Below, one piece after another: positions 11,272 through 33,557 of a stretch of DNA of 33,557 nt. Source of the DNA: Bacteroidota bacterium (GTDB lineage: Bacteria; Bacteroidota; Ignavibacteria; SZUA-365). A program made the translations under genes and the position numbers. Under the pieces are notes generated by a model. That model was not told the origin of the DNA. It searched no databases and saw only the letters and a list, made by a program, of their open reading frames with translations. Numbering within the stretch: the first letter of the stretch is position 1; each line of letters starts with the position of its first letter. Where the stretch lies: assembly GCA_029907355.1 (NCBI GenBank), contig JARYLZ010000030.1, forward strand, positions 1 through 33,557, written 5' to 3'.

Positions 11272-14200
11272 TCATATGCGGCACTCCGTCCCTTTCGAGA
11301 ACTTGAACGTACACGACCCGTGGACGAGCCCCCCGAGAATGTTGTAGTTGCCTCGCACGGTCCCTGTCACCCACAGGGGGTTCGGTGCTCCGGCGTCGAG
11401 GAGCATGGCTGCGCTGATACCGAGGATTTCGAAATTCCCGCGATAACCGAAATAACAGCATTCGCACCATTTACAGATCACGCAATACCATGGGCCGCAC
11501 GGTTTCCAGAGGTGGCTGCTGATATCGACGTACAGCCCGACCGATCCCGATACATAGGCATAGAGTTGGCCTTGCGCTTGCCACTTGTTGATGCCGGTAC
11601 AGTTGTTCTGTTTGAGCACCGCGATATCGAAACCGCCTCCTGCGCTGAATTCGCCGTAGAAAATTCCCCAGGTCTGCCTGCCGGTGCTGAAAGAGATATC
11701 CGCGCCGAAAGCGAAACCGTTTCCTGCGGCGATATTCGTGTTCCGATTCGACGTCGGTGAGCCGATGATCCTCCGCACGTTTTCCGGCGGAGGGAGCGGG
11801 GGCGGCAGGTTCTTCCCCATCATGAGATACGCGCCAACCTGCCCGAGCCAGGATGCGAGACGGATCTGGAACCTGCTGCTCGGCTCTCCGATCTTGAAGT
11901 ACCACGTGCTCGATTCGATGTGCAGGACAGCTTGGCCGCCGCCGGTGACCGGCGGGGCGTTGATGTTCACCGTGAAGAGACCGTGGAACGTCTTCTGCGG
12001 GAAGTAATACGTCAGGTCGCAGAACATCGTGACCTTGGCGTTCTGCCTCGCGGTGATTTCGGTCATCATGTAGCCGTTCCCCTGAAGGGTGATGCGGCCC
12101 ATCGAGATCCCGCCCGTGCTCGTGTTGCGTATCAGTTCGATCTCGAGAACGATATCGGCGTTGAAAGCCGCCGATGAGGGGTAGGTACCCATGACGACCA
12201 TCGCCTTGAAGCCGAAGACGCCATCGGCAGGTACGAAGCGGAAACCGGACACGGTGGCACCGGGCGTCGTACCGGCCACGGCGGAGGATGTCGGGACACC
12301 GGGTGTCCCAGGACCTTCCCTTCGCATGTTCCACCAGAAACCTCCCCCGAAGCCGTAGAATGCGGTGCCCGTCTGAAACTGTCCCGCACCGATAGGGATA
12401 CCGGGGTTGAAGATCGCTCTCGCATCGACGTAGAAGTACCGGAAATTGTTGACGCTCCCGAATTGCACGGTGGCCGTGATGTTGATCATCTGGATGACAC
12501 TGGCTTCGATCGCACCGCGGAAGCCGTTGCCGTAGACGGGGTCCTGGCGGTAGAACGTGATCGACCCCTTGATTTTCACCGGTCCCAGATCGGCATCGAC
12601 CGTGACTTGTTGAAGTTCGATACTGTTGTATTTGAATTTCTGCCCGCCTCCGCTCACGTCGAGTTCACCCCATAGGATCAGCGTGGTGCTCCCCCCGATG
12701 GCGGTGGATCCCGGGGCGAAATTGACGTTGATGGAGAATTTGATACCCGTCAGGTCCTTATTGGAGACGGTCCTGTTCTGCAGGTCGATGTTCGATATCG
12801 AGATGGGGAACCCGGCGAGCCCTTTTTGCGGGCTGGCGAAACCGAACGTCCCTTTCGTGAAATACGGTTTCACGCTCTGCAGTTTCATGTTTTGGAACCC
12901 GATCCCGAGCAAGTTGACGCCCGGTACCGGCCCGATCGTCCCGGCAATGGATATGCTCCCGTTGAGGATCGCGACGGCGCGGAATTGCCGTTGGGGATTG
13001 TCGTTGCCCAGCGTGATACTGGACGTGGAAAAGAGCTTGATCGAGGCCATCCAAATGTTCGCCTTGAACGTGTCGGCGGGTTGGATGACGAACGCCATGC
13101 GGAGGGACTTGGCGGTGTCGGTTGAGAGCGGGCGGGAGAGCGTCGCCGTGTATTTGAATGGGGAATCGGAAATCGGCATCTGGATTCTGCCTTTCAGCCA
13201 GCCCGCCCGCAGGGAACTGCTCACGATTTCCACGCCGATAGTGTCGAGACTGCCGCCCCATGAACCGAAGTTGCCCCTCGGGTACTGGAACACGTTCTCG
13301 GCGCGGAAACTCCCCGTGATGCCTGCACGCGTGATCAGCAGGTTCTGCACGGCGATCTGAGGTGGCTGGGTCGCGTCGAATGTGCGCAGAGCCGGGGGCA
13401 ACGATATGCTGGCGCGCTTGATGAAGAAACCTTTCCAGGTATTGTCCTTCACGCCGACATACCCGTCGGGAAATACGATTCCCGCGGGGTTGGCCTCGTC
13501 CGACTTATCGATCGCCATCTCCTGCACTTCGAGGACCATGCCGGGGACGCCCGCCAGTTCGCAGCGGTCCATGCTCGCCGCCGCGAGGAAATTGCCCCCC
13601 CGCGAAACGACCGTGCGGAACTTCGCTTTGACCTTCGAGGTCCCGTCGTCGGTCGGGAACGGCTTGAGCCATGTACGGGGAAACTTGACCTGCGCGCTCA
13701 AGTGCAGCTCCTTGAAACCGCGGCAGTCCAGCGAGACGTAACATCCCGGCTCCTCGCCTTTCGGCGCAAGGAATTTGAAGCTCCATGTCTCGCTCGCCGT
13801 GTACCCGAGATCCGCCGGCAGGTACAGCTCGACGTTCCCATCGCCGCCGATGCCTGCAGGGGAAATGCAGATCCTGCGCGCGCCGAGGCCGACGGCGATC
13901 TCCGGACCCCATTCGGGGATGGCGCAGGAGATGACGGCATTCATGTACGCCGCGGTCGGTTTGAACACCATCCCGATGATGCCGAGAACAACCTTGCGCC
14001 CCATGATATCGTTATCGAAGCCCAGCGGCATTTTCGCGGGCATTCCCGCGAGCGCGCTCACCAGCCGGGCGGAGTTGGTCGTTACCCCGTAGATGGTCTT
14101 GAGCTGTGCGTCCGTCAGGCCGAGTGCATCGCCGAGCCCGTTGGCGAGTTCCTTGGAAAGCCCGACGTCCTCTGCCTGCTGTGCGACGATGTCGCCCTCG

Positions 14201-17160
14201 TACATCTCGTTGTTCGCGTTGACCTTCACATCGAAAAACTCCACGGCGATTTTCACCGACAGCATGAATGGGATCGTGATAAACCCCGTTCCGCTGAGTG
14301 CCGCAGGCGTACCGCTGACCGTCACGAGCTTCAGTGTGAAGCGTCCGACCCGGAGTGTGTCGTTCGGTTTGAGTTGTTGCGTCCCCGGCGTTTGCAGAGT
14401 TGGCGGGGCGATCGAGCAGACATCCAGGCAACCTTCCGACGCGGTGGAGTCGGCCGTGAATACGGCCAGTGCGCTTCGGACCGTATCGCGTGTACATCGC
14501 GCCGTGTCCTTTCGAATCGACGCCGGGTTGAATGTCATCGTGAAACGCCAGAGGTAACTCTTCTTCTGCACAACCGCGAACCGCTGGGCCGCCCCCGGGA
14601 AATTGACGAACTTGAGGTCCAACACCGGGTTCCCCAGGGAATCGAGGCGCTGGACGATGTTCGCCGCGGCGCTCCCAGTGAAACTCCTGTCGAACACCGG
14701 CGAGCGCTTGAGGACTTCGTTCGTGTCCTCGCGGGCGCTGGTCATCTGCCAGACCTGCAGGCGCCCACTCCGAATAGCGGACGGGACGATTTCGGGGGAA
14801 ACGGAAAGGGAGAACAGCGGCAGAGAATCCTTCTTCCAGAAACCCCTGTCCGGAGGTTGCAAGGCGGTCAAACGCACGCACTCCGCGACGGAGACGGCCC
14901 CGGGCCTCCACGTTGTGTCGAATGTGAACACCCCGGGCGACGACGTCACTTCCGCCACCGGACAGCGTACCGAGTCCTTGCGGATCGTCGCGCTGTCGAC
15001 CCCGAGCGTGAAACGCCAGAGGTAGGTCTTGCCCTGGGTGAAATCATGTTTATAGCTCTCGGTCGATGGGCTCCTATTTTCATTGATGAACACGAGGTCC
15101 ACAGGCGAGCCCCCTGCGGAATCGGGTCGGACCTCTACATGGATCGTGTTATGACCGAAGAAACGGCGGTCGTACACCGGTGCGCGGGAGAAGACGGAAG
15201 AGGTGTCTTCCGTGGGGCTGTTCATCTCCCAAATCTTCAAGTTTCCGCTGGTTATGCCGTTCTGGACTATCGCCGGTGAGGCATGCACGCGGAACTGTGG
15301 CCTGTTGCTGCTGTACCAAACGCCCCTTTGCATCGGCGATACCGGGTCGAGCCGGAAGCACGCCACGGCGGCACTCGTGTCTCGAAGGCTTGCAATCGAA
15401 TCGTAGCGGAAAACGGCTTTCCCGCTCGTGATGGTCGACACCGAGCAGGGTTCGCGGTCGATGCGCACCGCGAACCGGTCGAACTCGAGCGTGAAATCCC
15501 ACAGGTACCACGCACCGTTCTCCGCGGCCCACTGTTTCGCCGCCCCGGGATGATTGACGTACATGAGGTCGAGAACAGTCTCGGAAGCCGACGACGATTT
15601 CACCGCGAGGTTCGCGGTAGGGTTGCCGGAGAAGACCAGCCTCCTGTCCGGGAATCTGCTCCCGATGTCGGTCCGCGTCGAATCCTCTATTTTCCAAATG
15701 TTGAGCGTCCCGCCCGTCACAGCCGCCTGCGCGATGCCCGGTGAGACTTTCACGGTGAACAGCGGTTTCGAACTCTGCGTCCAGCGGCTGGTGTCGGCGG
15801 GTTGAACGGCTTCGATGACGAAACAGGGCGACCAGCTGAACCTCCCGACAGTGCTCGTGGTCGACCCCCGCATACATTCCACCGAGTCCGCGCGGATGGA
15901 AGCGCTATCGTGCTGGAGGTCGAAACGCCACGCGTACCATGTGTCCTTCGTCGTGGTGAATTTCGCGTCCTCGGCCTGCGTGAACTTCAACTCGATGATC
16001 GTCGTGTCGCCCGTTCCCTTGTTCAGCGCAACTTTGTCCTCGCCGTTGCCGGTGAATGTTTTGTCGTATACGGGTGTTCGCACGGTGACCGAAGCCGTAT
16101 CCTCGTCCTTGTTGACCATGCGCCAGATGCGCAAGCGCCCGCCGCGTATACCCCTGCGGGAGATCGCCGGGGAAGCCCGGAGCCGGAAGACGGGAACCGG
16201 GCTCGACGTGAGAACTTGCCGATCGGTCGGCTCCGACGCGAGCAGGGTGAAGCACAGCACGCTGGGTTTCTTGTCGGGTTCACCGTAGACGAAGGAGCAG
16301 GCGATGCTCTTCCCATCGTTCCGGAAGGCGACGCGCCCGCCCGGCGTATATGCGCGCACGCGCCACGCGTACGTCGTGCCTTTGACCAGCAAGGGAAGCA
16401 TGGCGTCATAGGAGAAGAGCGTCGAGATCAAATCGCGGCGTACGACCATCGCCGGGTCACCGGGTGCATCGAGTGCGGATTCCGGCGTTTTGCCCGCAGC
16501 GACCGGCACGATCGTCAACTCGTAGCGGATATTGGCCAATTCGGCCGTCGGCACCCCGGCGACCGGCGCGATCCACTGGAACAGAACGAGTTGCGGGTCG
16601 GACTGCCGCACCGTCGATGCGCATACGGGCGAGATCGGCTGGGGGACCTCGGCGTATTGAATGTTGACGAACTGACATGCCTGGGGCGGCGGCGCCGATA
16701 GGGGCGCGAGCGTGGCGTAGTCGAGAGCCTGAGCGCAGATCGTGTAGGAACCCTCCGGCAAACGACCGCTCCGCGCAACTTGGTCGCGATCCACGCCCGA
16801 CCCGTCGACCTGATTCTGGTTGAAGAGGTTATAATCGCGCCCGGTGAGGGTGAGCATGCCGTTCGGTCCGATCGTGAACGGCTGCATCGGGACGTTGTCC
16901 TTGGTCCAGATGCGGATCGTCTTTTCGCTGTTCTCCAGGATTCCCGATAGGCGGAATTGGTACGTGTTCGATTGCGTGTTGCGCACGGTGAGCTGGATGC
17001 GTTCGGGGTGGGCTTCCCAGTCCGACAGCAACGGGCTGTAGGGGGGTATGATCGTCACAGCCACCTGAAGGGGGTATTGCTGGGCTTCGGTGTTCGAAGA
17101 CAGCGCCGCCGCGAGCAGAAAGGCATATAATGTCCGTTTCGGGAAGTACAAACGCGTCAT
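11272..17160 (-). CDS. Giant secreted surface protein (1962 residues) with tandem repeats
   Basis: It starts with a signal peptide (YAFLLAAALSSNTEAQ) after an AGGAA ribosome binding site. Residues 29-165 form an opening module (VTIIPPYSPLLSDW...) of a kind I recall from very large uncharacterised Bacteroidota surface proteins, sometimes labelled TANFOR-like; not tested. A module with an FN3-like Trp (about 170-290) follows, then four tandem repeats of about 145 residues (303-904). The remaining thousand residues are beta-rich with Gly/Asn/Thr-rich strands, which suggests a long beta-solenoid or barrel-like body. Near the C-terminus six cysteines fall within 15 residues (CGPWYCVICKWCECC). There is no T9SS sorting tail. 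It lies 57 bases after a predicted outer-membrane barrel gene and overlaps the longest frame of the FN3 gene by ATGA. A cell-surface or translocation role is plausible; no enzyme motif was seen. Confidence 0.9.
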   Translation of the reverse strand: MTRLYFPKRTLYAFLLAAALSSNTEAQQYPLQVAVTIIPPYSPLLSDWEAHPERIQLTVRNTQSNTYQFRLSGILENSEKTIRIWTKDNVPMQPFTIGPNGMLTLTGRDYNLFNQNQVDGSGVDRDQVARSGRLPEGSYTICAQALDYATLAPLSAPPPQACQFVNIQYAEVPQPISPVCASTVRQSDPQLVLFQWIAPVAGVPTAELANIRYELTIVPVAAGKTPESALDAPGDPAMVVRRDLISTLFSYDAMLPLLVKGTTYAWRVRAYTPGGRVAFRNDGKSIACSFVYGEPDKKPSVLCFTLLASEPTDRQVLTSSPVPVFRLRASPAISRRGIRGGRLRIWRMVNKDEDTASVTVRTPVYDKTFTGNGEDKVALNKGTGDTTIIELKFTQAEDAKFTTTKDTWYAWRFDLQHDSASIRADSVECMRGSTTSTVGRFSWSPCFVIEAVQPADTSRWTQSSKPLFTVKVSPGIAQAAVTGGTLNIWKIEDSTRTDIGSRFPDRRLVFSGNPTANLAVKSSSASETVLDLMYVNHPGAAKQWAAENGAWYLWDFTLEFDRFAVRIDREPCSVSTITSGKAVFRYDSIASLRDTSAAVACFRLDPVSPMQRGVWYSSNRPQFRVHASPAIVQNGITSGNLKIWEMNSPTEDTSSVFSRAPVYDRRFFGHNTIHVEVRPDSAGGSPVDLVFINENRSPSTESYKHDFTQGKTYLWRFTLGVDSATIRKDSVRCPVAEVTSSPGVFTFDTTWRPGAVSVAECVRLTALQPPDRGFWKKDSLPLFSLSVSPEIVPSAIRSGRLQVWQMTSAREDTNEVLKRSPVFDRSFTGSAAANIVQRLDSLGNPVLDLKFVNFPGAAQRFAVVQKKSYLWRFTMTFNPASIRKDTARCTRDTVRSALAVFTADSTASEGCLDVCSIAPPTLQTPGTQQLKPNDTLRVGRFTLKLVTVSGTPAALSGTGFITIPFMLSVKIAVEFFDVKVNANNEMYEGDIVAQQAEDVGLSKELANGLGDALGLTDAQLKTIYGVTTNSARLVSALAGMPAKMPLGFDNDIMGRKVVLGIIGMVFKPTAAYMNAVISCAIPEWGPEIAVGLGARRICISPAGIGGDGNVELYLPADLGYTASETWSFKFLAPKGEEPGCYVSLDCRGFKELHLSAQVKFPRTWLKPFPTDDGTSKVKAKFRTVVSRGGNFLAAASMDRCELAGVPGMVLEVQEMAIDKSDEANPAGIVFPDGYVGVKDNTWKGFFIKRASISLPPALRTFDATQPPQIAVQNLLITRAGITGSFRAENVFQYPRGNFGSWGGSLDTIGVEIVSSSLRAGWLKGRIQMPISDSPFKYTATLSRPLSTDTAKSLRMAFVIQPADTFKANIWMASIKLFSTSSITLGNDNPQRQFRAVAILNGSISIAGTIGPVPGVNLLGIGFQNMKLQSVKPYFTKGTFGFASPQKGLAGFPISISNIDLQNRTVSNKDLTGIKFSINVNFAPGSTAIGGSTTLILWGELDVSGGGQKFKYNSIELQQVTVDADLGPVKIKGSITFYRQDPVYGNGFRGAIEASVIQMINITATVQFGSVNNFRYFYVDARAIFNPGIPIGAGQFQTGTAFYGFGGGFWWNMRREGPGTPGVPTSSAVAGTTPGATVSGFRFVPADGVFGFKAMVVMGTYPSSAAFNADIVLEIELIRNTSTGGISMGRITLQGNGYMMTEITARQNAKVTMFCDLTYYFPQKTFHGLFTVNINAPPVTGGGQAVLHIESSTWYFKIGEPSSRFQIRLASWLGQVGAYLMMGKNLPPPLPPPENVRRIIGSPTSNRNTNIAAGNGFAFGADISFSTGRQTWGIFYGEFSAGGGFDIAVLKQNNCTGINKWQAQGQLYAYVSGSVGLYVDISSHLWKPCGPWYCVICKWCECCYFGYRGNFEILGISAAMLLDAGAPNPLWVTGTVRGNYNILGGLVHGSCTFKFSKGTECRI
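14449..16254 (-). repeat. Four tandem ~145-residue repeats inside the giant protein
   Basis: Repeats cover protein residues about 303-444, 446-587, 601-748 and 761-904. Each begins with a Cys-Phe/Val strand, then a 'P.F.....SP.I....I..G.L.IW' core, a 'PV.D..F.G' strand, an 'LDL.FVN' strand, and ends 'YLWRFT......IR.D...C'. The two cysteines at the repeat ends could pair across each unit. The repeats are diverged at DNA level, so they are old duplications. Confidence 0.85.
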
Positions 17161-28030: not shown

Positions 28031-29431
28031 TCACCCGCCGGTCAGTCGATCCCACGCCTTGCGAAACGTACTCGGATCGAGTTTGAGCAACCTTGCCGCT
28101 TCGGCTTTGTTGCCGCCGGCTTCGCCCATGAAATACCGGAACACGGCGCGTTGCATCGATGCCATGAAGGCGTCGATGCCGGCGCTGAGCAATTCTTCGC
28201 GATGCCTAAGAATAAAAGCAGGAATTTCATCTGAAAATGACCGTTCTCGTTCACGGTCATACCGCTCCCTCGCTAAAGCGGATACGTCGCTGGGAGTGAT
28301 ACTGTCACCGGATGCAGTCAGAACGAGACGGCTTATGAATCCGCGGAGTTCCCTCACATTGCCTGGCCACTGCATTGATCGCAACAGATCGACAGCCGTT
28401 TCTTCAATCGAGAAGGGCGGAGCGTCCTCGTTCCCTGCCTTTTCCTGCCTGAAGAAATGAGCGGTCAGCAATGGAATATCGTCGCTCCGTTCTCGAAGGG
28501 ACGGTATGTGGATAATTCCGGATTCAAGACGGTACAGAAGATCGCGCCTGAAACTGCTGCGTTCAAGGGAATCGATCGATCGATTCGTGCTGCAGATTAT
28601 CCTTGCACGTACAACTTGTGGCAAACCTCCGACAGGCGAGAACTCACCAGGATCGAGAGCCCGCAGTAGCTTTACCTGTATGGCCGGAGTGGATTCGGAA
28701 ATTTCATCGAGAAAGAGAGTACCTCTTTCGGCGAGTTTGAACAGACCTTCGCGCGCTCCCAAGGCGCCGGTAAACGCGCCGCGGACATGGCCGAACAGTT
28801 CGCTTTCAGCGAGCGTATCTACAATGGCGCCGCAATTGACAGCGAGATAGACTTCGTCCTTGCGGTGGCTAAGCGCATGAAGAGAGTGGGCGACGAGTTC
28901 CTTGCCTGTTCCAGTCTCACCTGAAATCAGTATCGGGCGATCCGTAGGCGCGAGTTTTTCGATGAGTGTACAGACCCGTTGCATAGCAGGACAAGCTGCG
29001 ACGAAACCGAATCTCTCCAGGATCGACTCTGCAGAAAACGTCGTCTCGAGTTTCTTCGTTCGCGAGCGGATTGCATTCTCCACCCGCTCCAGAATCTTCT
29101 CTATCGGCCATGACTTCTCGATAAAATCTTCGGCACGGGACTTGATTGCTTCCACTGTGACCGATGTGATATTGTCAGTAACACCGGTCATCATAATGGC
29201 TGGGACGTCTGGTGCTACAACCTGCAGGCGACGGAGCACTTCCATCCCGGACATACCCGGCATGTTGACGTCGATGAGTATCAAATCGGGATGTTCCGAC
29301 TCGAGCCGGGCTAGCAAGTGTTCGCCCGATGTAAAAGTCTGGGTTGCATATCCCGCTGACTTGAAATCGAGGGCGAGCAGCGCCAGCGTATCAGGCCAAT
29401 CATCGACGAGGAAAACGCGCGGCATTTTCAT
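28031..29431 (-). CDS. Sigma-54-dependent response regulator (NtrC family)
   Basis: A 466-residue activator with three domains. The receiver (about 1-120) has phospho-acceptor Asp54 in LILIDVNMPG. The AAA+ domain has Walker A GETGTGKE, GAFTGA loop and canonical Walker B FLDEI. The Fis-type C-terminal helix-turn-helix includes NKAEAARLLKLDPSTFRKAW. The start at 29431 has an in-frame ATG two codons later as alternative, and no strong ribosome binding site. No kinase lies on the same strand next to it. Before the IS insertion its start was only 78 bases from the divergent sensor gene now at 31135, so that sensor may be its partner, or may share control. The T9SS cargo gene directly downstream is a candidate target or co-transcribed gene. 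Confidence 0.94.
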   Translation of the reverse strand: MKMPRVFLVDDWPDTLALLALDFKSAGYATQTFTSGEHLLARLESEHPDLILIDVNMPGMSGMEVLRRLQVVAPDVPAIMMTGVTDNITSVTVEAIKSRAEDFIEKSWPIEKILERVENAIRSRTKKLETTFSAESILERFGFVAACPAMQRVCTLIEKLAPTDRPILISGETGTGKELVAHSLHALSHRKDEVYLAVNCGAIVDTLAESELFGHVRGAFTGALGAREGLFKLAERGTLFLDEISESTPAIQVKLLRALDPGEFSPVGGLPQVVRARIICSTNRSIDSLERSSFRRDLLYRLESGIIHIPSLRERSDDIPLLTAHFFRQEKAGNEDAPPFSIEETAVDLLRSMQWPGNVRELRGFISRLVLTASGDSITPSDVSALARERYDRERERSFSDEIPAFILRHREELLSAGIDAFMASMQRAVFRYFMGEAGGNKAEAARLLKLDPSTFRKAWDRLTGG

Positions 29432-29509
29432 ACACCCGGAGAAACATTTGATAGAGGAAATATGTTGAAAAGTTATGATTTTTCAATACCTTTTTTGATT
29501 TCTATCGGG

Positions 29510-29526
29510 ATGAATCCGGAAACATC
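29510..29526 (+). repeat. Left copy of 17-bp target-site duplication
   Basis: ATGAATCCGGAAACATC is identical to the copy at 31135-31151. The identity ends exactly here: flanking bases differ on both sides, and the IS end (TGT...) begins at the next base. Confidence 0.85.
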
Positions 29527-29580
29527 TGTGATGCCACAGTCGAAATGTCAGGGGTTAAGCTCAGTAGAAATGTCAGTAGT
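29527..29580 (+). repeat. Left terminal inverted repeat of the IS
   Basis: It starts TGTGATGCCACAG and carries two direct copies of a GAAATGTCAG-x-x-GTTAA motif (29542-29558 and 29567-29583). They are probably transposase binding sites. The inner copy matches the right end over 14 bases. Confidence 0.7.
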
Positions 29581-29632
29581 TAAACGAAACTTTGGGCTCT
29601 CACAACAGGAAGCTCCGGGAATGAAAGCTACC

Positions 29633-30767
29633 ATGAATATGACAACTGAAGCACTAAACAAATCCCACGTATTCCGATTGCTAACAATAGGCAAAATCTC
29701 GATTGCTGATGCGAGTGCGTAGCTTGGTATCACTTGGATAATGCGACAAGCCGTCGAATTTCAGCTACCCGAACGGGACTCACGAGCAGGTTGTGAACAT
29801 CATTCGTCGCCCTGATACGGATTACGGGCCTGAATTGCTCAGTAAGGTTTTGGATGAGCGATATCCGATACGAATCACTTCCGAGACTCTGCGCCGCTGG
29901 ATGATCGAAGCCGGTCTTTGGAAGAGAGCGAGGAAAGGTCGACGACACAGGAAAAAGCGGCCGCGTCGCACGGCAATAGGCGAACTCGTGCAGTTTGACG
30001 CGAGTCATCATGATTGGTTCGAGGGCTGCGGACCGGTCTGTTGCCTGTTCGTCTTAATCGATGACGCCTCTAACCGTAGCTTCCTGCACTTTGCCCCGGC
30101 CGAGGGCAAGCATGCAGCCTTGGAAGCTCTTCTCCTCTGCATCCGGCGTTATGGTATTTCCAGCGCTCTGCACGTCGACCGTCACAGCCTATACTGGAAT
30201 GAAGAAAAGCTGACCCGGTTTGCACGCGCGCTCAGGCAGTTGGGTTGTCGCCTGTTTTATGCTCAACGTACTCAGTCCAAAGGACGTGTGGAAAGAGCCA
30301 GTTGCACTCAACAGGAACGTCTGATCAAAACGATTCGGCCGGAGAACTTCTTGACCGCAGAGCGTGCGAACGCATTCCTGAAAGGAGGCTATCTCGATAA
30401 GGATAATCAGCGCTTATCGGACACCGACACCATGGTCGATGTGCATCGCGAAGCAACACCCTATTATATGGAGAATATCATCGGTCATGAGCAGGAATGC
30501 TGTTTCAATCACGACATGACTATTCGCCTTCGCTCAATCTTCTATCAGTTGCTTGCAACCATTCATCAACTCGTTATTCCACGGCAGCGCGTCATTCTGC
30601 GACGCTGACTTTATGGCTCTGTGCACATTCTCTGGCGTGAGCAGGAACTGACTATTTCCGAATGCGCCGTACGGCCGACTTCAAAGCGGAAGATGGTTCA
30701 ACCGGCTGATAACCACCTAACCACCCGTCGCAACATCGGCCTCCTACAGCGAATGCCGGAAAAATGA
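29633..30767 (+). pseudogene. IS transposase (ISNCY/IS1202-like), inactivated
   Basis: The N-terminal piece (from 29633: MNMTTEALNKSHVFRLLTIG then KISIADASA) is the first half of a helix-turn-helix and ends at TAG (29722). The frame then shifts, and the spacing to KPSNFSYPNG is about 25-30 residues too short, so part of the DNA-binding domain is deleted. The main frame contains the catalytic core: Asp in QFDASHHDWFEG, Asp in LHVDRHSLYW, Glu in QSKGRVERAS. It stops at TGA (30606-30608). Directly past that stop the same frame continues LYGSVHILWREQELTI to 30767; the position corresponds to a Trp in related proteins as I remember them (TGG to TGA). The DDE residues survive, but the enzyme should be non-functional. 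Confidence 0.82.
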
Positions 30768-31080
30768 AGATCAGCGAACCGTGCAGGGTAAAGACATCAA
30801 GTAAACAGATCTTATCTGTGATCCTTTCTTGCCGGTCAAGATAATCTCCCGCATTTGTTCCATGTCAAAAGTATATCAACCGCCGCAGAGCGAAAATGTC
30901 GAACTCATCAAATCTACAATCGTCCGTGATTTTTCGGAAGCTGTCATGATCTTTTCCGGTGTTGCGGAGGATCTTGACAGGGCTATGCGAGAGATTCTTC
31001 GCACTTTCGGCATGAAAGAATCGCGAGAGCACAGACTCAGGACTTTCGACATTCCTCTCCAGCCGTTTTTCTGTTTGCTT

Positions 31081-31134
31081 TTACTGACATTTCTATAAAG
31101 CTTATTTAGCTGCAATTTCCAAATTACTACAACA
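31081..31134 (-). repeat. Right terminal inverted repeat of the IS
   Basis: The reverse complement begins TGTTGTAGTAATTTG and contains GAAATTGCAG and TAGAAATGTCAGTA at nearly the same distances from the tip as in the left end. It ends at the base before the second 17-bp repeat. Confidence 0.7.
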
Positions 31135-31151
31135 ATGAATCCGGAAACATC
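31135..31151 (+). repeat. Right copy of 17-bp target-site duplication, includes the sensor start codon
   Basis: This is the exact second copy of ATGAATCCGGAAACATC. Its first three bases are the start codon of the sensor ORF, so the duplication restored the gene start after insertion. Confidence 0.85.
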
Positions 31152-33557
31152 AAGGCTATGCAATTTCACTCGATGCAGCAGGAGGCTGCAAGCGTGCTGC
31201 CTTCTCGATAGTGCATCCGTACTCACACGAACTGTTGCGACTTTCATCGTTCTGCTGACCTGCGCCGCAACCGCACTTTCACAGGAAAGAGTGGCACGCA
31301 TTTACACTGAGAAGGACGGATTGCCCACCGCGACAGTTTTCTGCGTATTGCGCGATGAATGCGGCGTGTTGTGGATCGGCCACGAGCGTGGTCTTTCAAG
31401 ATTTGACGGAAGCATATGGCAGCACGTCGGCGCGACTGAAGGACTAAGCAACGCTGTTCTTGGATTGGAGATATACAATGGGCGCCTCTGGTGCGGCACT
31501 ACCGCCGGAATATACAGGATCGACACCGTGTGTGTTCGAGGGGTCACACGCTTGAAGGCTTCACACATCAAGGAATTCGGCACGAACAACTCGCCCGTAC
31601 TGGTGGTGTGGAAAGGTCGTCTTTGGGTCACAAGTTGCGACATTTCCTTCCCGCACTCGCATCCTGCAAATCGCGAAACTCGAAACAGGGGTTTGCTGTG
31701 GTGCGAATCCCGCGGCTCGAAATATGTTTACGGCGAGTACTCTGCCAAAGACGGGCTCGCAGGCAATGGCGTTGTTGGATTTGCCGTCGCGGGAGACAGT
31801 CTGGTTGTTGTTTCCTCCGGAGTGACGTCCGTGCACTACTCGGGAGGGCGTTTTTTTCTGCGTCCCTTGTTCCATAACATCGACCAAATCCTTCAACCTC
31901 CGGAACCCGCCCAACTCTGGGCGTACGCTACGGCCGTTCCTTCGGGAATCGTAATAAGCCGGCAATATCTGTACCTGCTGAAGAACGGCCGGATTGAAAT
32001 GCGGAATCGGCTCGGAACAGGCTTCGCGAAATGGAAGGACTCTCTTCTATGGTTGGTACAGCCGGGAATCGGCATTGTGCTGCTCGATCGCGACATGCGC
32101 CGTGTTCGGGACCGAATCGACACGGACGCGGGATTAGCCAATAATTACACTCACAATCACCTCTTCTTCGACTCCGACGGTTCCGTATGGATTCCATCAC
32201 TGTGCGGTTTGACGCATCTCATCTCTCTCTCAGCACGTAGATTCCCCTTGCGAAGAAGCGTACACGGAATCTGCGAAATGAACGGCGAAGTGCTTATGGG
32301 AGTCGAAGACAAGTTGTTCACTCTCAACGGCAACGGCTATTTACAAGAACGCTCCATGCCTTTGGTCGCAAACAAGGCGTCCCAGTCATTCATCACGGAT
32401 ATTTCAACGCATCGGAAGGATCTTTTCGCCACCGTTTCCGGCGACCTGTTACGTTTCAGAGGCGGCCGGACGAACAGCGCGGAAATCATTTTAAGCAGCA
32501 CAACGGAAGAGAGAAAAAAGCGAATTCCTTATTCCGTTCGCCGCTTCATCATTCTCGAAGACGGCGGCATTGCATTCGCTATGAACCGAATGTTCGGATA
32601 CTTGCATCCGGAAAAATTCCGAAGGCCGTTCTTCTGGGATACTACGGCATCAAGCAGTGGCAATTTCCGCTTCGAGGGCGGATTGCCGGGCGCAAAAGTA
32701 CTCTGTCTATTGCAGCGCGAAAACAAGGTGTGGCTCGGCACAAACCGCGGTCTTGCCGTGTTCGATCCGGAAAAGCGCGCCATCAGCAAAGTACCGTGGC
32801 CTTCTTTGTCGAGAGTACAAGCTGCAATTTACGATCTAACGCAACACGGCAACGAACGGCTGCTCATTGCAGCGGATGACGGGATTTGGATAGCCGATTC
32901 AACGCGGCTGAGAAAATGCGTTTTCCCGTCCGGTTTCAAGCATGCGTATTCCGCGCTATCCGCCGGAAATTTCATAATTATCGGCGGAGATCAAGGCTTA
33001 TGTGTTTTCCGCGATACAGTGCTTACCCGTGTAGTGACGGAAGCCGAGGGACTGACTCATCGCGGAGTGACGCATCTTTTTCGGGACAGCCGCAGCAGAA
33101 TTTATGCTTTGACGGCTTCAGGCGTTTCGATTTATGATGAGTCGGAATTATTGCGCGAATGCGAAACCCCGAAAGTCGCTATACACTTGATCGAAGTGAA
33201 TGGACAAGTGCAATTCGCGCATCTGCTTCCGACGACTCCGGCCGTTCCGCAAATCATTGAAAGCAGGCGGCCGTACTCGTCCCTTCTTGTTCGTTGCGTT
33301 TCCTCGTCCACGGCAGGGGCGAGAGAAATTGAATACCGTTTCCACCTTCGCGGCGACGACACCCTCTTCACGTCGGAATCAGCTGAACCGGTATGTGTGT
33401 TTTCCAACATCAGTCCGGGCGATTGGCGTTGCGAAGTACAAGCCCGTCATCTAGGCGGGTCATGGTCCCCGCCGGCGGCTTTCATTTTTCACGTGCCAAT
33501 GCCTGTATATATGCGCTGGTGGTTCATTGCTTCGCTCGCCGCATTGTTACTATTGCT
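31135..33557 (+). CDS. Two-component sensor with beta-propeller and Y_Y_Y domain (C-terminus outside window)
   Basis: The frame stays open for 807 codons from ATG 31135 to the window edge. A signal/anchor segment (VATFIVLLTCAATALSQ) precedes a periplasmic region made of regulator-propeller repeats, e.g. VLRDECGVLWIGHERGLSRF, GRLWCGTTAGIYRID and NKVWLGTNRGLAVFD, each with the W-x-G-T-x-x-G-x-x-x-x-D pattern. Residues about 700-785 match the Y_Y_Y beta domain (EIEYRFHLRGDD, GDWRCEVQARHLGGSWSPP). A membrane helix begins at about 795 (MRWWFIASLAALLL). In known proteins of this build a histidine kinase, LytTR or GGDEF output follows; that part is not in the window. The likely ligand is extracellular carbohydrate or another exported compound. 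The IS ends directly before the ATG, so native promoter and ribosome binding site are probably lost. Confidence 0.9.
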   Translation, partial: MNPETSRLCNFTRCSRRLQACCLLDSASVLTRTVATFIVLLTCAATALSQERVARIYTEKDGLPTATVFCVLRDECGVLWIGHERGLSRFDGSIWQHVGATEGLSNAVLGLEIYNGRLWCGTTAGIYRIDTVCVRGVTRLKASHIKEFGTNNSPVLVVWKGRLWVTSCDISFPHSHPANRETRNRGLLWCESRGSKYVYGEYSAKDGLAGNGVVGFAVAGDSLVVVSSGVTSVHYSGGRFFLRPLFHNIDQILQPPEPAQLWAYATAVPSGIVISRQYLYLLKNGRIEMRNRLGTGFAKWKDSLLWLVQPGIGIVLLDRDMRRVRDRIDTDAGLANNYTHNHLFFDSDGSVWIPSLCGLTHLISLSARRFPLRRSVHGICEMNGEVLMGVEDKLFTLNGNGYLQERSMPLVANKASQSFITDISTHRKDLFATVSGDLLRFRGGRTNSAEIILSSTTEERKKRIPYSVRRFIILEDGGIAFAMNRMFGYLHPEKFRRPFFWDTTASSSGNFRFEGGLPGAKVLCLLQRENKVWLGTNRGLAVFDPEKRAISKVPWPSLSRVQAAIYDLTQHGNERLLIAADDGIWIADSTRLRKCVFPSGFKHAYSALSAGNFIIIGGDQGLCVFRDTVLTRVVTEAEGLTHRGVTHLFRDSRSRIYALTASGVSIYDESELLRECETPKVAIHLIEVNGQVQFAHLLPTTPAVPQIIESRRPYSSLLVRCVSSSTAGAREIEYRFHLRGDDTLFTSESAEPVCVFSNISPGDWRCEVQARHLGGSWSPPAAFIFHVPMPVYMRWWFIASLAALLLL

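Follow-up and report, generated by a model that had tools for sequence, protein, structure and literature searches.

A divergent sensor-regulator pair with an insertion between its genes

The window, by which we mean the whole 33,557-nt stretch analysed here (contig JARYLZ010000030.1 of the Ignavibacteria assembly GCA_029907355.1), ends with two divergently oriented signalling genes, a response regulator and a sensor, with a short intergenic region and an insertion sequence (IS) between them (Table 1). The sensor frame is open for 807 codons up to the contig end at 33557, which cuts the gene ahead of any kinase domain. The first-pass annotation had called this frame intact; that holds for the visible part, which stops ahead of the kinase part. 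An HATPase_c fragment at the start of contig C138 is 33% identical to the ortholog; its identification as the missing kinase half of the sensor was set aside, as a link between C138 and the window contig is not established. Elsewhere in the window, an 18-bp exact repeat, CGTGAAACGCCAGAGGTA, occurs at 14539-14556 and 15007-15024, 468 bp apart, inside a long minus-strand open reading frame (11272-17160), and probably corresponds to repeated protein modules.

Table 1. Features of the sensor-regulator locus and of the element inserted in it (TSD, target site duplication)
Feature	Position	Strand	Basis
Divergent response regulator with sigma-54 interaction domain	28031-29431	-	Pfam Response_reg, Sigma54_activat, HTH_8
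Original region between the divergent starts, 78 bp, GC 0.32	29432-29509		Equal spacing in L003 and L004
Left TSD copy, ATGAATCCGGAAACATC	29510-29526	+	Exact match to 31135-31151
Decayed IS1202-family IS, 1608 bp, TGT...ACA	29527-31134	+	Ends and TSD by the rule applied to eight relatives; single copy
Left-end GAAATGTCAG pair, probable transposase binding sites (predicted)	29542-29576 (29542-29551, 29567-29576)	+	16 and 41 bases in from the end; same spacing in relatives
Transposase pseudogene: TAG at 29720; about 62 bp missing and frame change at about 29735-29747; TGA at 30606; frame change near 30716	29543-30793	+	tblastn with intact L018; transpos_ISNCY_2
Long 3' non-coding part of the IS	30794-31134	+	Aligned with L018 2490-2826
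Right-end repeat pair: inner GAAATGTCAG (31084-31093), outer degraded GAAATTGCAG (31110-31119)	31084-31119	-	42 and 16 bases in from the end; same spacing in relatives
Right TSD copy, bases 1-3 forming the ATG of the sensor frame	31135-31151	+	Exact repeat; reading frame start at 31135
Sensor reading frame, two-component regulator propeller	31135-33557	+	Pfam Reg_prop; 33% identical orthologs

Boundaries of the element and its relatives in the class

The two TSD copies form an exact 17-bp direct repeat, and the 1608-bp spacer between them opens with TGT (29527-29529) and closes with ACA (31132-31134). Beyond these two copies the 17-mer was absent from the 3.25-Mb genome, with up to two mismatches allowed, and 17-mer repeats arose in 0 of 300 composition-matched random sequences. 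The exact repeat, the TGT ends and the placement of the left copy 78 bases from the regulator start at 29431 had all been proposed in the first-pass annotation, and all are confirmed here. That annotation had also named 29565 and 31095 as ends that the element might have instead. These positions are explained by the inner end repeats, which are present at the same spacing in relatives of the element; we therefore reject them and uphold 29527 and 31134 as the true ends. The outer repeat of the right end carries two mismatches.

Related transposases are found in 28 of the 391 genomes of the same class, the window genome counted. Eight related elements have readable ends; these are bounded by TGT and ACA, measure 1385-1502 bp and are flanked by TSDs of 15-16 bp (one of them with a mismatch), so that the 17-bp TSD in the window is one base above the longest of these. 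Nearly all eight have repeats of the GAAATGTCAG type about 16 and 41 or 42 bases from each end, an arrangement that the window element shares.

An element from the same family of organisms (L018, on G005:C211) is 1657 bp long and has an intact transposase frame of 435 aa, 47-50% identical to that of the window element. Both have a long 3' non-coding region; the L018 contig stops at the right end of its element, so that a TSD of L018 cannot be seen. This region, about 340 bp between the transposase and the right end (L018 2490-2826), includes the common blocks GTATATCAACCGCCGC and CTTGACAGGGCT. Most of the other relatives are shorter than these two elements. A passenger gene in the 3' region was considered and rejected, its candidate being a 78-codon open reading frame (30862-31098) without relatives.

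A decayed member of the IS1202 (ISNCY) family

Members of the IS1202 family are described as having TGT/ACA ends, doubled repeats and a TnsB-like transposase of the DDE type in which the catalytic E is followed, seven residues on, by Q, and most measure 1327-1747 bp; the long-TSD subgroup has TSDs of 16-17 or 27-28 bp (PMC10132070). Further features by which membership of the long-TSD group was judged are a TSD of 16-28 bp, terminal inverted repeats (TIRs) of 24-26 bp with 15-25 identical positions, and a transposase of 394-507 aa. The window element has the TGT/ACA ends, a second internal repeat at each end, the Q after E and the TSD length. Its plus-strand frame at 29793-30608 matches the NCBIfam model transpos_ISNCY_2 with 202 bits, below the cut-off of 250 as expected of a fragment; three intact relatives exceed that cut-off, at 369-386 bits. 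In the core frame, KGRVERASCTQQ has Q seven residues downstream of the catalytic E. An intact transposase of 394-507 aa is lacking, since two stop codons, a deletion and shifts of frame break the gene, and the TIR has 14 of 26 positions identical, compared with 19-24 in the class relatives, which is consistent with decay.

The element at 29527-31134 is thus an IS1202-family insertion of the long-TSD kind, and the earlier family assignment is borne out by the ends, the doubled repeats, the transpos_ISNCY_2 match and the TSD; placement in the long-TSD group is made on TSD length as the sole ground. With the published long-TSD elements ISTde1, ISCARN62/63/53 and ISHahy13 (PMC10132070) it has in common the TGT/ACA ends, the doubled repeats of transposase-binding type, the spacing of seven residues from the catalytic E to Q, a TSD of 16-17 bp and a length of 1.3-1.75 kb. 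It differs from them, in a likeness drawn via published descriptions, by its pseudogene transposase and degraded TIR (14/26). The ISAjo2 group of the same family also has TGT ends and doubled repeats, but its members have TSDs of 3-5 bp and insert beside dif sites (PMC10132070), whereas the window element has a 17-bp TSD.

Two nonsense codons, a deletion with a frameshift and a late frameshift interrupt the transposase, and relatives have W at the position of the TGA at 30606; we therefore regard this copy, judged from its sequence, as a dead insertion. No further DNA copy of the element was found in the genome. Another transposase remnant of the ISNCY type, heavily decayed, lies elsewhere in the same genome (L077 1501-2013; G000:C93:19666-20178); a search there for IS ends of this type gave nothing recognisable. 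Loss at conserved columns was mildly elevated in the window element (24/95; L018, 23/122; six relatives, minus-strand frames left out) and was set aside as evidence.

A probable start codon in the duplicated target

A close relative with an empty site, holding a single copy of the 17-mer, was not found in two scans of GTDB contigs and 16 genomes of the order. Only two clearly orthologous loci were recovered, from one Chlorobiota and one Bacteroidetes metagenome-assembled genome (L003 and L004). Their sensors are only 33% identical to the window sensor, the one in L003 being 1090 aa long with an HATPase_c domain; the neighbouring regulator is clearly related (59% at the L003 locus). Both loci have the divergent pair with 78 bp between the start codons and no IS, and their sensors begin with MKETTAF and MKEMTPF, compared with MNPETSRL in the window. 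Given the equal spacing and the matching N-termini, the ATG within the TSD (29510 and 31135) is probably the ancestral sensor start, as judged from these distant, 33% identical orthologs, and was probably duplicated along with the target. The first-pass annotation had the start codon 'rebuilt' by the target duplication. That the TSD carries the start codon is supported by the two distant loci; the codon was duplicated together with its target and not rebuilt.

Another possible reading is that the sensor originally began at ATG 29462 and that the IS landed at about codon 17-22, leaving a 5'-truncated gene with an internal Met supplied by the TSD. Once the flanks are joined, the open frame runs from ATG 29462 past ATG 29510, and AGGA stands just upstream of ATG 29462; in this genome 17 of 39 genes have Shine-Dalgarno-like motifs, an enrichment over the 6.4 obtained in shuffles. 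The open frame and this enrichment make such an insertion possible as a minor alternative. However, the AGGA is only 3 nt from ATG 29462, in the orthologs 78 bp separate the sensor start from the regulator and the N-termini match MNPET, and L004 has just seven open codons above its sensor start; we consider the truncation unlikely.

In two of the nine TSD-bearing insertions, the window element and L030, the right TSD copy opens with the in-frame ATG of a co-oriented gene. L030 (2567-3412) is a related IS from another genus, and the gene in question is a short-chain dehydrogenase reading frame. The dehydrogenase domain begins at residue 36, and AAAGGA precedes an ATG further downstream, so this TSD ATG probably lies about 29 codons upstream of the real dehydrogenase start. 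None of the remaining seven insertions has the start-codon pattern, and a survey of the phylum gave no additional readable insertions. Since the L030 ATG stands above the likely start and the other seven lack the pattern, chance is the better reading, and a preference of long-TSD IS1202 elements for targets at or near gene starts seems very improbable. No conserved target has been found for the long-TSD members (PMC10132070).

Expression of the sensor after the insertion

That insertion sequences can alter neighbouring genes is well known. The first-pass annotation had described a clear regulatory rewiring; such rewiring by the IS is plausible, and sensor expression may have changed, although nothing in the sequence demonstrates an altered switching-on of the sensor gene after the insertion. 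One route would be a promoter in the right end of the IS, with the sensor now read by IS-borne transcription. The final part of the IS is AT-rich (GC 0.425 in the 3' region) and directly abuts the ATG, but scans of 31025-31134 for sigma-70-type and Bacteroidota-type promoters did not rise above shuffled sequence, and we hold this route to be doubtful. Scans of the native region and of the orthologs likewise gave no clear excess over shuffled sequence, and for this reason the scans carry little weight for or against a promoter.

The sensor might instead still be read from its native promoter, with transcription now passing through the dead IS. The sensor has the same orientation as the transposase remnant, and the sole terminator-like site of the region is on the minus strand, none being found on the plus strand; as a hypothesis, native read-through is therefore on a par with a promoter in the IS. 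It would, however, entail a 1.6-kb untranslated leader with many stop codons, which may favour premature termination, and we put it forward only tentatively.

Discussion

We propose with high confidence that a long-TSD IS1202-family element inserted at the boundary between the promoter region and the sensor gene, that the 17-bp target including the sensor start was duplicated, and that the transposase has since decayed. In such a course of events the IS would have transposed to the edge of the 78-bp divergent promoter region, and staggered cleavage followed by repair would have duplicated a 17-bp target opening with the sensor start codon. Because the duplicated target begins with that codon, the sensor coding sequence would have stayed whole, with its upstream DNA replaced by the right end of the IS; the sigma-54 regulator would have retained 95 bp of native upstream DNA. 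The two nonsense codons, the deletion with its frameshift and the other frameshift would have accumulated in the transposase later.

Its tidy position apart, the insertion is an ordinary one for a known family. At a conserved sensor-regulator pair, it split the promoter region and left the visible reading frame of the sensor unbroken. For the long-TSD side of the recently defined IS1202 family, of which independent examples had been few, the analysis contributes one decayed member and eight relatives whose ends can be read.
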